From positions 1 through 33,685 of IMG/VR virus record IMGVR_UViG_3300044812_000040: DNA of 33,685 nucleotides. One strand, written 5' to 3'. Below the pieces are notes generated by a model. That model searched no databases and was not told where the DNA came from. It saw only the letters and a list, made by a program, of their open reading frames with translations. Made by a program: the position numbers and the translations under genes. Of this stretch, positions 3,388 to 27,542 are shown in pieces; positions within the stretch are counted from its first letter, which is position 1; the number at the start of each line of letters is the position of its first letter. Source of the DNA: a virus.

Positions 3388-3460
3388 TGGCAGGTGGTGA
3401 GGGAGTCGAACCCCCGCAGTCCCTTTTGGAGAGAGACTAGGCACCATGCCGTTACCACCT
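3388..3460 (-). tRNA. tRNA-Trp (anticodon CCA)
   Basis: Read on the minus strand, the acceptor arms AGGTGGT and ACCACCT pair over seven bases, followed by discriminator G and an encoded CCA. The anticodon arm is TCTCT-CTCCAAA-AGGGA; the loop has U33 and anticodon CCA, reading UGG. The T arm is GGGGG-TTCGACT-CCCTC with one G-U pair. The D arm is short, about three pairs with a small GG-containing loop, and the molecule is 73 bases with CCA, at the small end of the range. Encoded CCA and a compact D arm are common in phage tRNAs. The plus-strand sequences to either side hold no gene. Confidence 0.82.
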
Positions 3461-13141: not shown

Positions 13142-13849
13142 TTAGCCGATCCCCAGGAGGAGGAGTTTGTTGTGATCGGCCACGACATCGATCATGGTCT
13201 GGCCGGAACCGCCGTTGTATAGGTCGGAGATTTCAGTAGAAGAGAGAACCTTGGCCCACACTCCCACTTCGTCGATGGCGGCGTCGGAATACTGCGAGAT
13301 GTCGCTACGGCGTCCGATCTCGAAGAAAGCTGATTGAGTATTGGGGGTGGCACCAGGGTTAACGGTCCCGAGCGATGAGCCGTTCTTGTAGATCGTCCAG
13401 GTTGAGCCGGCGCCTGGATATGTGAACGTCATCATGTACCACGTGCCCGTAGACATGCCGTGCGCGATGCCTCCATCGTCAGCGCCGAACTGGTCGACGG
13501 AGACGTTGGTGGTGTTGAAGTAGAGGAAAACCGCGCGGTTGCCTGCCGTTGTGGCTCCGTGGCCGATCACTGTTTCGGTGGCTACCAAGCTCGCAAAGTT
13601 CACCCAGAAGTTGTAGGTGCGGGCAGTCGCGCCAGTCGGGAGTCCTGTCGGCGAGCTTTTGGTCAGATACTGGGATGAGGCACGAACGACGTTCAGCGCG
13701 TTATTCACTTTGCCTGAGACAAAAGTGGCGGTGTTGACGTTCGTGAGGTTATTGCTCCCGTAGAAGTCGGTCGCATCTTCGAGCTTGAAGTACGAGGCCA
13801 GACTTGTGGTGAGCGTTCCTCCCGTATCGACTTGAAATTGCTTCGCCAT
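13142..13849 (-). CDS. LamG / concanavalin A-like lectin domain protein
   Basis: A 235-residue protein that is essentially one jelly-roll domain. The pattern LASYFKLEDATDFYGSNNLT, followed by GKVNNALNV, RTYNFWVNF, WYMMTFTYPG, WTIYKNGSSLGTV, FFEIGRR and AAIDEVGVWAKVLSSTEI, is the classic LamG/concanavalin A-like series ending in the DEV.VW...LS..EI..LYN motif. Such domains bind sugars on phage tail fibres, virion decorations or receptor-binding proteins. Position among the virion genes supports a role in host-surface attachment. The tail after LYNGG is short. The upstream region is A-rich without a Shine-Dalgarno sequence. Confidence 0.8.
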   Translation of the reverse strand: MAKQFQVDTGGTLTTSLASYFKLEDATDFYGSNNLTNVNTATFVSGKVNNALNVVRASSQYLTKSSPTGLPTGATARTYNFWVNFASLVATETVIGHGATTAGNRAVFLYFNTTNVSVDQFGADDGGIAHGMSTGTWYMMTFTYPGAGSTWTIYKNGSSLGTVNPGATPNTQSAFFEIGRRSDISQYSDAAIDEVGVWAKVLSSTEISDLYNGGSGQTMIDVVADHNKLLLLGIG

Positions 13850-22132: not shown

Positions 22133-23687
22133 CGCGTTCGTCTAGGATTTCTTTGAGGTTCAGGAAGTCTCCGGATACGCCGCTCTTCACCAGCGGAGTG
22201 GCCGCCGGGTTCTGTGGGACGATGACAGCGCCGGTGCCTTGGGAGAGCATCGCGAGGTAGTAATACAGCGTGGCGAAGACGTAATGATCGACGCCCGTGG
22301 TCGATTGCCACTCGTAGCTTTCGATGCCCTTGGGGTTCACGACCTTCACGCGGCGAAGAGTTTCGAAGTGTTTGATGTACTCGCGCAGCTCGTTATCCGA
22401 GGCGAGGGCGAAGAGCATCTTCGCCTGGATGATGTAGTCGAGCATCTGGTCGAGGGCGCGGTTGCGATTTGAATAGACGATCCCTTTCTTGTCCCCCTCG
22501 CCCCACCACACGATGACTTGGGGATTGTTCGTGTTGTCCTGGAAGAACGACATGAGCACGTTGCGGTAGTGCTCGACGAAGTGCTTGGCCATGGTGTTGT
22601 CCGGCATGGCGTCGATCACGGCGCAGGTTGGCCGGTAGTGAATGAGCATGTCGTCGAGGTCCGACCATTTCGAGAAGCGGCCGACTTTGATCACGCCCTT
22701 CTCGGAGCCGAGGACGTAGTGCTTGATGTTGCCGATGTCGACGCCGAGGTAGTAGGTGCCGGTGTCGAGGCTCTTCGGCGTCCAGTTGTCGAGGATCGTG
22801 GAGCGTGTGACGGTGAGATCGCCCGGGTTATATGGCTCGCCGAGAACGAAGTTATGAAAATACTCCTGGTCGCCCTCGCTGTCCTCGATGATCTCGGCCG
22901 CGGTGATTCTGGTCGCGATGAGGTGCGAGAGGTGATAGCCGGAGACCTTCGCGCCGGGGTTCATCGCGATCCATCGGCCTTTCCTGCGGGTGTCGTTGGA
23001 CATCTCGGCCTTGCAGCCGGAGCATTGGAAGCATTTGCGCTCGATGTCGATGTTGTCCGGCCAGACGAGCTGCTGTTCGAGCTCACACGCGGGACAGGTG
23101 ACGTGCCATTCTTTCTGATCGGACTTCTTCCACTCCTGGTCGAGCAGATCCTTCTCGGTCGTGGGATTCGAGAAGAGCCAACGGCCCTTGAACGGGCTGT
23201 CTTTCGTTCTCGATTTGTAGGTGTTCAGCTGCTTCTGATCGGAGCGTGACGCCTCGTCGTGGATGAGGAGGTCGGCGGTCGTGGAGATCGCGGCGCTCTT
23301 CGATACCGTGCCCTTGAAGAACAGGAACCGGCCGTTGATCTCCTTGCGTTCGATGTTGTCGGTCTGGATGCCGGCGAAGGTCTGCGGGTTCTCTTGCAGG
23401 ATCTTGTTGGTCTTCGTGCCGACGAACTCGCGTACGTCGTCGTCGGTCGGCATCGTGTAGATGATGTTCCAGCCGAAGGTGCGAACCGCGAAGAGGGCTT
23501 TGAGGTTGAAGGTGACGGATTTGCCGACCTGAGAGCAGGCTTTCACGGCGATGTTCTGCGACCAGTCCGTGAGGATGTCGAGCAGGAAGGCGTGATCGTG
23601 GAAGTCGAGCGGCTCGCCCTTCTCCGTCACGATCTTCTCGTTCAGTATCCAGCCGAGTATCGAAAGGTTGGATACGTCGGGCGTCAT
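22122..23687 (-). CDS. terL: Terminase large subunit (GpA-like)
   Basis: A 521-residue packaging motor. The ATPase half has a Walker A-like QVGKS (residues 53-57), preceded by KACS, and a Walker B DLLIHDEAS ending in Asp144-Glu145; SNPTTEKD near 173 is a coupling-motif-like segment. A zinc-binding insert follows: Cys198, Cys201, Cys222 and Cys225 (CPAC and CSGC). The nuclease half holds acidic residues at the end of strands: Asp in YYLGVDIGN, Asp in AVIDAMPD and Asp in VDHYVFATLYYY. The insert and overall plan fit the GpA (lambda-type) family. It overlaps the co-chaperonin gene at its start by four bases. No Shine-Dalgarno sequence. Confidence 0.93.
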   Translation of the reverse strand: MTPDVSNLSILGWILNEKIVTEKGEPLDFHDHAFLLDILTDWSQNIAVKACSQVGKSVTFNLKALFAVRTFGWNIIYTMPTDDDVREFVGTKTNKILQENPQTFAGIQTDNIERKEINGRFLFFKGTVSKSAAISTTADLLIHDEASRSDQKQLNTYKSRTKDSPFKGRWLFSNPTTEKDLLDQEWKKSDQKEWHVTCPACELEQQLVWPDNIDIERKCFQCSGCKAEMSNDTRRKGRWIAMNPGAKVSGYHLSHLIATRITAAEIIEDSEGDQEYFHNFVLGEPYNPGDLTVTRSTILDNWTPKSLDTGTYYLGVDIGNIKHYVLGSEKGVIKVGRFSKWSDLDDMLIHYRPTCAVIDAMPDNTMAKHFVEHYRNVLMSFFQDNTNNPQVIVWWGEGDKKGIVYSNRNRALDQMLDYIIQAKMLFALASDNELREYIKHFETLRRVKVVNPKGIESYEWQSTTGVDHYVFATLYYYLAMLSQGTGAVIVPQNPAATPLVKSGVSGDFLNLKEILDERDAA

Positions 23688-23920
23688 GTGATGATGGAAA
23701 AGATGTCCTCGCGCCGGGCTATGACGTATTCATTGCCTTCGTGGCGGACGCTCACGGGGCCGTAGGTCGTGAATAGAACGGTGTCGCCGGTCGTGACTCC
23801 GTCAGCGGCCGATGCGACGACGCGGCCCTTCTCGTATCCCTGCTCCTTCGTGGCGACGATGATCTCGGCCGGCAGCTCCACTTTCTCGAGCACGACCTGG
23901 CCGCGGGTGGGTTTAAGCAT
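23684..23920 (-). CDS. GroES-like co-chaperonin
   Basis: A 78-residue protein with the Cpn10 pattern. It opens LKPTRGQVVLEKVE, as GroES opens RPLHDRVIVKRKE; then AEIIVATKEQ stands where the GroES mobile loop carries its hydrophobic IVL triplet; GRVVASAADGVTTGDTVLF and EYVIARREDIFSII match the VG....V..GD.V.F and E.L...E.DILAI strands of the family. It is shorter than the usual 95-100 residues, mainly in the mobile loop and roof. Phage T4 gp31 and others replace GroES with a phage version to fold the capsid protein; the same job is likely here. It sits within the packaging genes with an ATGA overlap to terL. There is no GroEL gene in the window. Confidence 0.85.
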   Translation of the reverse strand: MLKPTRGQVVLEKVELPAEIIVATKEQGYEKGRVVASAADGVTTGDTVLFTTYGPVSVRHEGNEYVIARREDIFSIIT

Positions 23921-25768: not shown

Positions 25769-25798
25769 TTGACTTTTGACGTCTAGACGTCATATCAT
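25769..25798 (+). promoter_or_regulatory. Methyltransferase promoter with a palindrome filling the spacer
   Basis: TTGACT at 25769-25774 and TATCAT at 25793-25798 (five of six consensus bases) are separated by 18 bases. The perfect 16-bp palindrome TGACGTCTAGACGTCA at 25777-25792 fills that spacer, so a bound dimer would block polymerase. The ATG follows only eight bases after the -10, leaving little or no leader. Confidence 0.65.
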
Positions 25799-25806
25799 CG
25801 GCCACC

Positions 25807-26952
25807 ATGTCGATCACGGAGGTGCGTCGGCGTCCCGGCCAGGTGAGGGACGCGATCGTTGAGGTTCTGACGCGGCAGCCGGACGGCGCTTCCCTGAACG
25901 AGATTCAAAGCGGGGTCATCTCCCTGATCGGTCCGACATCGCCCTCGAGCATCCGATCCTATCTGAACCTGAACGCGGAGTCGCTGTTTGACCGGACGGC
26001 TCGGGGACGGTACAGCCTGCGGGGTTCGGCACGCCGAACGGGTACGCAGCGTAACTTCCGATCGGCGAGCATCGGGCGTTCCACGCTTGTCCTGGCTGAC
26101 TGCATCGAATGGCTGAATCAGCAGCCGGAGAACAGCATCCACGGGGTTGTGACCGATCCTCCGTACGGCCTCGTGGAGTACGAGCCAGAGCAGCAGGAGA
26201 AGATGCGGAACGGGAACGGTGGTATCTGGCGGATCCCGCCGTCTTTCGACGGGACGAAACGCGCTCCCCTGCCTCGGTTTTCGGTTCTCACGGCTGGGGA
26301 TGTGGAAGACCTGGTGAGCTTCTTTTTCAAGTGGGCCGGCGCTCTTCTGCGTCCTTTGGTGCCCGGCGCGAACGTGATCGTGGCAAGCAATCCTCTCCTC
26401 TCGTACGCCGTAGGATCAGCGCTAGCTCGGGCTGGCTTGGAGCGTCGGGGCGAGATTGTCCGTCTCGTGATGACGATGCGGGGCGGCGATCGGCCGAAGA
26501 ACGCGCACGAGGAGTTTTCGGGGGTGAGCGTGATGCCGCGTTCGATGTGGGAGCCGTGGCTCATGTTCCGGAAGCCGGTCGAGGGTCGGGTGCAGGACAA
26601 TCTGCGGAAGTGGAAGACGGGCGGTTTCCGACGGCCCTCTGCGGAGCGGCCGTTCGGCGATGTGATCGAGTCGTCGCCGACACACAAATGTGAGCGGGCG
26701 CTGGCTCCCCATCCGAGCCTCAAGCCGCAGGCGTTCCTTCGTACGCTAGTGCGAGGGGTGCTGCCGCTCGGCGAAGGCGTGGTGTGCGATCCGTTTGCGG
26801 GTTCGGGTTCCACGCTCGCTGCCGCCGAGGCGGTCGGTTACCAGAGCATAGGCGTCGAGAAGGATGCCGCTTTCTTTGAGCTCGCGAAGAAAGCTATCCC
26901 GAAGCTCGCGGCCTACAAAAACGGCCACGGGCCTCACTTGTTCAATTTGTAA
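25807..26952 (+). CDS. DNA methyltransferase with N-terminal winged helix
   Basis: A 381-residue SAM-dependent DNA methylase on the plus strand. Residues 1-75 are a winged-helix-like domain (GQVRDAIVEVLTRQPDGAS, LNEIQSGV, SIRSYLNLN), similar to HARE-HTH-type modules. The methylase has its catalytic motif DPPY at residues 117-120 ahead of the SAM-binding FAGSG at 330-334, with VVCDPFAG before it; the long stretch between holds the target-recognition region, and HPSLKPQ at about 302 is typical of the beta class. The order points to N4-cytosine or N6-adenine methylation. It is followed, tail to tail, by a PD-(D/E)XK protein, so it is probably the modification half of a restriction-modification pair. 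Its own promoter and palindrome suggest autoregulation. Confidence 0.88.
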   Translation: MSITEVRRRPGQVRDAIVEVLTRQPDGASLNEIQSGVISLIGPTSPSSIRSYLNLNAESLFDRTARGRYSLRGSARRTGTQRNFRSASIGRSTLVLADCIEWLNQQPENSIHGVVTDPPYGLVEYEPEQQEKMRNGNGGIWRIPPSFDGTKRAPLPRFSVLTAGDVEDLVSFFFKWAGALLRPLVPGANVIVASNPLLSYAVGSALARAGLERRGEIVRLVMTMRGGDRPKNAHEEFSGVSVMPRSMWEPWLMFRKPVEGRVQDNLRKWKTGGFRRPSAERPFGDVIESSPTHKCERALAPHPSLKPQAFLRTLVRGVLPLGEGVVCDPFAGSGSTLAAAEAVGYQSIGVEKDAAFFELAKKAIPKLAAYKNGHGPHLFNL

Positions 26953-27542
26953 AGGCAGCTCTCGCGGAAGGTCTTGATTCCCTCGCGATGGAGCGATGCG
27001 GTGCGGGTGCCGAGCGGTCCGCGGTTGTTGTGGCGGAAGTCGGCCTTGACGACATGGGCGAGATAAACCTCGGTGAACTCCATGGGCCGCCGGTCCTGTG
27101 CCGGTTCGGTCGTCGTATCGACCCGGTAGACGAAGACGCATAGCCACTGATCGCGCGCTCCGTGCATGTCCACTTGGCCACCGGCCTTCACGGTCGACTT
27201 CACTTCGACGCCTTCCTCTCCGGCCTGGACAGAATCGGATGGGTAGCGCCCCTGCTTGATGAGATCGGGATGGCCGTTCGGATAGTTGTTCCTCGTGAGA
27301 ACTCGGGAGTGCTTGCCGAGGCTCGCGGTGATCATGTCTGAGATCATCCCCGACATCTGAGCGCCGCGGAGCATGTCGTCGAGGCGCGGCAGTCCTCGCT
27401 CGACGAGCTTCTCGTTCACATCGAAAAAGAAGTCGTACACGTCCTGCATCGCGATCTTGAAGTCATCGATGCGGAGATCATAGGGAAGCTGGACATCGGC
27501 TTTGAACGCCGAATCATCGCGCACTGCTCTCTTGACTGGCAC
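26934..27542 (-). CDS. Putative restriction endonuclease, PD-(D/E)XK type
   Basis: A 202-residue protein whose last 19 bases overlap the methyltransferase gene from the opposite strand. It carries a PD-(D/E)XK-type core: Pro92-Asp93 in NGHPDLI, then Glu113-Val-Lys115 in EEGVEVKSTVK, with a strand-helix arrangement (QWLCVFVYRVDTTTE) after it. Upstream is a helical region (DDFKIAMQDVYDFFFDVNEKL). A DPDL-EVK pair close to a beta-class methylase is the usual layout of a Type II restriction enzyme. The ending TEVYLAHV...FRHNNRG...GTRTA fits what I recall of a poorly described family beside methylases. The name is inference from motif plus neighbour. No Shine-Dalgarno sequence. Confidence 0.65.
   Translation of the reverse strand: MPVKRAVRDDSAFKADVQLPYDLRIDDFKIAMQDVYDFFFDVNEKLVERGLPRLDDMLRGAQMSGMISDMITASLGKHSRVLTRNNYPNGHPDLIKQGRYPSDSVQAGEEGVEVKSTVKAGGQVDMHGARDQWLCVFVYRVDTTTEPAQDRRPMEFTEVYLAHVVKADFRHNNRGPLGTRTASLHREGIKTFRESCLYKLNK

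Follow-up and report, generated by a model that had tools for sequence, protein, structure and literature searches.

A complete Type II restriction-modification (R-M) module is probably carried as cargo by the phage in IMG/VR record IMGVR_UViG_3300044812_000040 (33,685 bases, analysed over its full length and hereafter called the window), and the methylase of this module probably represses its own promoter by means of a winged helix. The module comprises two convergent genes, M, which encodes a DNA methylase, and R, which encodes a predicted restriction endonuclease. The pair itself has the ordinary Type II R-M layout, in a family for which Pfam, NCBIfam and PHROGs hold no model. The new elements are an N-terminal winged helix on M and a double GACGTC site (GACGTC-N2-GACGTC) within the spacer of the M promoter, from which self-repression is predicted. 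We know of no description of autoregulation by a helix-turn-helix (HTH) domain and its operator in the amino-methylase class.

The methylase gene (25807 to 26952, plus strand) encodes a protein of 381 amino acids. The initial annotation had placed it in the beta class on account of a DPPY motif before FAGSG, and this assignment stands: motif IV (DPPY, residues 117-120) precedes motif I (FxGxG; FAGSG, residues 330-334), and the protein matches Pfam N6_N4_Mtase above the cut-off (58.4 bits, E 1.3e-15) and PADLOC MTase_II (378 bits). M is thus an amino methylase modifying N6 of adenine or N4 of cytosine. Its AlphaFold2 model resembles CcrM, TTHA0409, a rotifer N4-cytosine methylase, M.PvuII and M.RsrI, with low-confidence stretches near the target-recognition region. 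A halovirus relative suggested the CTAG specificity of Zim/HVO_0794, which was rejected as a lead given that described CTAG methylases carry SPPY and have the opposite motif order to that of M (PMC5867850).

R (26934 to 27542, minus strand; GTG start) encodes a protein of 202 amino acids, which by sequence alone has no match in Pfam, PHROGs, NCBIfam, PADLOC or the PDB. Its HPDLI (residues 91-95; 27258 to 27272, minus strand) and EVK (residues 113-115; 27198 to 27206, minus strand) had been read as a PD-(D/E)XK core. The residues N89, G90, P92, D93, G111, E113 and K115 are invariant across 11 homologues, and N89-G90-H91-P92-D93, G111, E113 and K115 across 52 aligned sequences with identities down to about 30%; the motifs are therefore not due to chance. 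Structure prediction, proposed earlier as a check, yielded a confident AlphaFold model (pLDDT 91.6, pTM 0.89) in which the core is present, P92 and D93 being joined by E113 and K115 on the strand formed by residues 111-117. A Foldseek search of this model against the PDB returned, at E < 1, only NaeI, EcoRV, BglI, SfiI and NlaIV, with NaeI first (1.9e-4). Alignment with VIA-align also placed the NaeI catalytic domain at the top (Z 9.8), followed with middling Z scores by SwaI, 3ndh, SfiI, EcoRV, BglI, DpnI, NlaIV and HincII; every row listed was a restriction enzyme. R is accordingly modelled as a PD-(D/E)XK endonuclease of the EcoRV/NaeI-like structural group, and should cut an unmethylated site. 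Many of these structurally similar enzymes leave blunt ends, which makes blunt-end cutting by R a reasonable guess.

Likeness to NaeI (PDB 1iaw, 1ev7), the closest solved fold, extends over 146 residues of the NaeI N-terminal domain at 13% identity, and specificity cannot be transferred at this distance. R also lacks the C-terminal domain of NaeI; at 202 amino acids and with no sequence match in the PDB, it has neither the sequence homology nor the two-domain Endo plus Topo architecture that define the NaeI family. A second partial relationship concerns PADLOC REase_II PDLC03564, which in 35 of the 52 homologues weakly matches a stretch before and at the PD motif and does not match R of the window. 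Its example (locus L111, 1387-3477) is a larger enzyme whose gene overlaps tail to tail with that of a C5-cytosine-type methylase, and a similar layout therefore recurs with another methylase class.

The R family is widespread and unnamed. Homologues were found in 20 plasmid records, 428 genome stretches and 12 IMG/VR contigs, and the record titles of the genome relatives name Chloroflexota, Planctomycetota, Nitrospirota, Proteobacteria, Acidobacteria, Actinobacteria and others. On the plasmids examined, including clinical Klebsiella plasmids, R is annotated as 'hypothetical protein'. A measured specificity for the family may exist elsewhere. Decay does occur in the family, since three of 102 R loci contain an internal stop, and the pair in the window could on this basis be a decayed or silent R-M remnant; this is improbable, however, given that both frames in the window are intact, none of the invariant catalytic residues has been lost and the promoter site is exact.

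Co-occurrence of the two genes is evidence that they form a system. A member of the M family adjoins R in all 106 records examined, a few of which are overlapping fetches of one contig. Most loci were retrieved with R alone and then searched with M, so the adjacency was not built into the sampling. Separate, adjacent and co-inherited genes for a methylase and an endonuclease with a restriction-type fold constitute a Type II R-M layout, as the initial annotation had supposed. The pair occurs on 4.9-kb Klebsiella ColRNAI plasmids and on plasmids of Gordonia, Pseudomonas, Rhizobium, Iamia and Acidiphilium. Convergent orientation was found in 100 of the 106 loci and a one-strand arrangement in six, as on a Mycobacterium avium plasmid. 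Two viral contigs also have both genes on the same strand: in one (L096, 5001-6899) the double GACGTC site lies between R and M, and in the other (L001, 4091-5594) M precedes R and both the HTH domain and the site are missing.

In the window, the 3' ends of the two genes overlap by 19 bases (26934 to 26952), as had been noted. This overlap is real, but it is not a phage speciality: in the 96 convergent pairs measured, the median stop-to-stop distance is -16 (-19 in the window) and 83 of them overlap, which makes tail-to-tail overlap the usual anatomy of the family. As a control element, the double GACGTC site in the M promoter is more informative than the overlap, which the initial annotation suggested could restrain nuclease expression.

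M has its own promoter, as previously proposed, in the form of a sigma70-like TTGACT, an 18-base spacer and TATCAT (25769 to 25798, plus strand; 10 of 12 consensus matches). The -10 hexamer ends eight bases before the ATG at 25807, and the M mRNA may therefore be nearly leaderless. Within the spacer lies the predicted operator, GACGTC-TA-GACGTC (25778 to 25791), in which two hexamers two bases apart are enclosed by the perfect 16-bp palindrome TGACGTCTAGACGTCA (25777 to 25792). An initial scan found the site in 74 of 74 loci with an alignable N-terminal part of M. GACGTCNNGACGTC is exact in 81 of 81 loci that encode the HTH domain, and a count over 81 site-bearing loci gave exactly one copy in each. 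All 12 hexamer bases are constant, and the central N2 varies, favouring TA, CA and TG. Of 82 sites, 64 lie between hexamers resembling -35 and -10 elements, compared with four when the same test was applied 60 bp upstream as a control. Approximately 57 GACGTCNNGACGTC sites occur in 299 whole genomes; at this background density about 0.03 would be expected over the 0.62 Mb that the loci span, where 81 were seen, and none of 20 sampled background sites lay near M or the HTH domain. A search of IMG/VR for TTGAC-linked double GACGTC returned 11 matches; one (L002) is beside M and the others were set aside as chance. No GACGTC operator was found upstream of R, nor any conserved motif clearly above shuffled controls except GC-rich words.

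The predicted controller domain spans residues 10-71 of M (25834 to 26019, plus strand). In the AlphaFold2 model it comprises helices at 10-23, 30-41 and 46-55 followed by strands at 61-63 and 68-71, an arrangement predicted to be a winged helix. Its match to Pfam HARE-HTH (PF05066) is weak (E 0.053, 14.4 bits where the cut-off is 25.9), and none of 57 domain members matched HARE-HTH at E 0.01. Pairwise identity among the domains is 47% on average with a minimum of 26%, and the helix SSxRSYLxLN (residues 47-56), which sits where a recognition helix would, hardly varies. In six relatives (Iamia, M. avium, Gordonia, two Acidimicrobiia and Streptomyces) the domain is a separate small open reading frame (ORF) between the site and M.

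Domain and site are closely linked. When 98 loci were sorted with an HTH profile built from clean seeds, the domain was fused in frame in 75, all of which have the site; it was a separate ORF in six, again all with the site; and it was missing from 17, one of which has the site. This single locus (L043) is the only one with a double GACGTC upstream of the methylase and no detectable HTH domain. The strongest hint comes from the separate-ORF loci, which carry the site in six of six cases and so indicate that it goes with the domain rather than with the catalytic part. More distant viral loci (L097-L103) and an Acidiphilium plasmid locus, whose R is about 30% identical, have neither domain nor site. 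The genome scan covered the best 80 of the 428 stretches, that is, the closest relatives, and the strictness of the site therefore holds for the close subfamily only. On a Microvirga plasmid (L012, 3962-5125), a methylase with the HTH domain and the exact site stands without an R of the window type beside it; the next gene encodes a 356-amino-acid hypothetical protein, which could be a different partner of the methylase.

The same sequence might instead be the R-M recognition site. GACGTC is the specificity of AatII and ZraI, and methylation of the two promoter sites by M, perhaps sensed by the winged helix, could set expression as in CfrBI, in which the methylation site lies in the -35 element of the promoter (PMC3978073). 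Methylated adenine can be read by winged helices (PMC11037411). Each hexamer is palindromic, like a Type II site, and the 12 bases remain exact in the 81 loci despite the divergence of the HTH domain and the variable N2. The window contains 6 GACGTC sites where 16 are expected, the third lowest of 27 testable palindromes, although this deficit (uncorrected P 0.004) is unconvincing after correction. Across 619 kb around the systems there is no avoidance (264 sites against 301 expected, a ratio of 0.88, rank 40 of 64). Loci in which M has no HTH domain are also without the site, and methylation alone therefore fails to explain the linkage. CfrBI resembles the present case in having a hexameric palindrome in the methylase promoter, and differs in that its hexamer is the methylation site whereas here the hexamer goes with the HTH domain. 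Recognition of GACGTC as the target is consequently a tentative alternative. In a combined form, GACGTC would be both methylation target and operator, and the winged helix would sense methylation of the two promoter copies and switch the gene off when protection of the genome is complete. This homeostat is rather unlikely; if true, it would be a closed methylation circuit common to chromosomes, plasmids and phages. The GACGTC methylation reported in Natrinema was considered as a lead and set aside, as it is m5C made by another enzyme and uninformative for M (PMC12160562).

Self-repression by M through the winged helix is predicted by analogy with M.SsoII. In M.SsoII and M.Ecl18kI, an N-terminal HTH region binds a palindromic site in the promoter of its own gene and represses it (PMC3978073). 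Both cases combine an HTH region on the methylase with a cognate palindromic promoter site. The present system departs from them in its amino-methylase, its winged helix, the GACGTC-N2-GACGTC site and the convergence of its genes, and some natural relatives encode the HTH domain in an ORF of its own. SsoII-type enzymes are C5-cytosine methylases and M is of the N6/N4 class, so M at most works like SsoII and is not a member of that type. The separate winged-helix ORF of the six relatives occupies the position of the controller gene in C-protein systems such as AhdI, Esp1396I and Kpn2I. However, C proteins are Xre-type HTH proteins (PMC3978073), whereas here the predicted controller is a winged helix, is fused to M in the window and has no operator at R.

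In the mechanism that these comparisons suggest, M would methylate the same site that R cuts when unmethylated. The winged helix of M would bind the double GACGTC between -35 and -10 and block RNA polymerase. On entry of the module into a cell, M would then be produced without restraint, and its level would later be kept low, so that R could act. Three observations weigh against this reading of the module. Sequence searches with R gave no match to a named enzyme or, profiles included, to a solved structure; both halves of the operator are exact palindromes in their own right, a degree of symmetry beyond that required of a simple dimer operator, which hints at a further constraint; and the relatives whose M has no HTH domain do without such control.

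The setting of the pair points to cargo on a tailed temperate phage, a lifestyle indicated by the integrase, large terminase subunit, portal protein and major head protein encoded in the window. No M or R was found in the flanks, which are short, of 30 IMG/VR terminase relatives (27 clear, three remote), and the pair therefore looks like cargo; gene order differs between the window and these relatives and, with such short flanks, the exact insertion point is not definable. Among 50,697 phage records there is one M relative (a Halorubrum virus) and no R homologue, while every IMG/VR locus with R contains both genes. Complete pairs of this family are thus rare in viruses and not unique to the window.

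R ends the early operon, as the initial annotation had it, lying 34 bases after the preceding ORF on the same strand as genes for an exonuclease, a single-stranded DNA-binding protein (SSB), NinB and RusA. This position would suit a phage recombination or repair nuclease with an unrelated orphan methylase beside it. Such an explanation is very improbable, as the same pair and layout are found on plasmids and chromosomes of many phyla without those phage genes, and the fold of R resembles Type II restriction enzymes. Under the proposed R-M module, R has no operator like that of M, and its expression in the window phage probably depends on read-through transcription of the early genes. Should these genes be silent in a lysogen, restriction would occur mainly during lytic growth. 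The roles put forward in the initial annotation, namely destruction of competing phages, stabilisation of the prophage and timing of modification before cutting, may be how the module serves the phage.

Other genes of the window include a small Cpn10/GroES-like protein adjoining the terminase genes (23684 to 23920, minus strand; Pfam Cpn10, E 1.4e-6) and a protein with a Laminin-G/concanavalin-like lectin domain among the structural genes (13145 to 13849, minus strand), possibly a host-binding protein. A tRNA-Trp gene (anticodon CCA; 3388 to 3460, minus strand), approximately 2 kb from the integrase, is either phage-carried or linked to the attachment site.

How a newly arrived R-M module times its methylase before its nuclease is a long-standing question. 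The present family of restriction enzymes, found in hundreds of genomes, has so far lacked a model in the main profile collections, and its close subfamily offers a strict predicted operator tied to a domain that is used both fused and split, which would make it a compact and directly testable control circuit.
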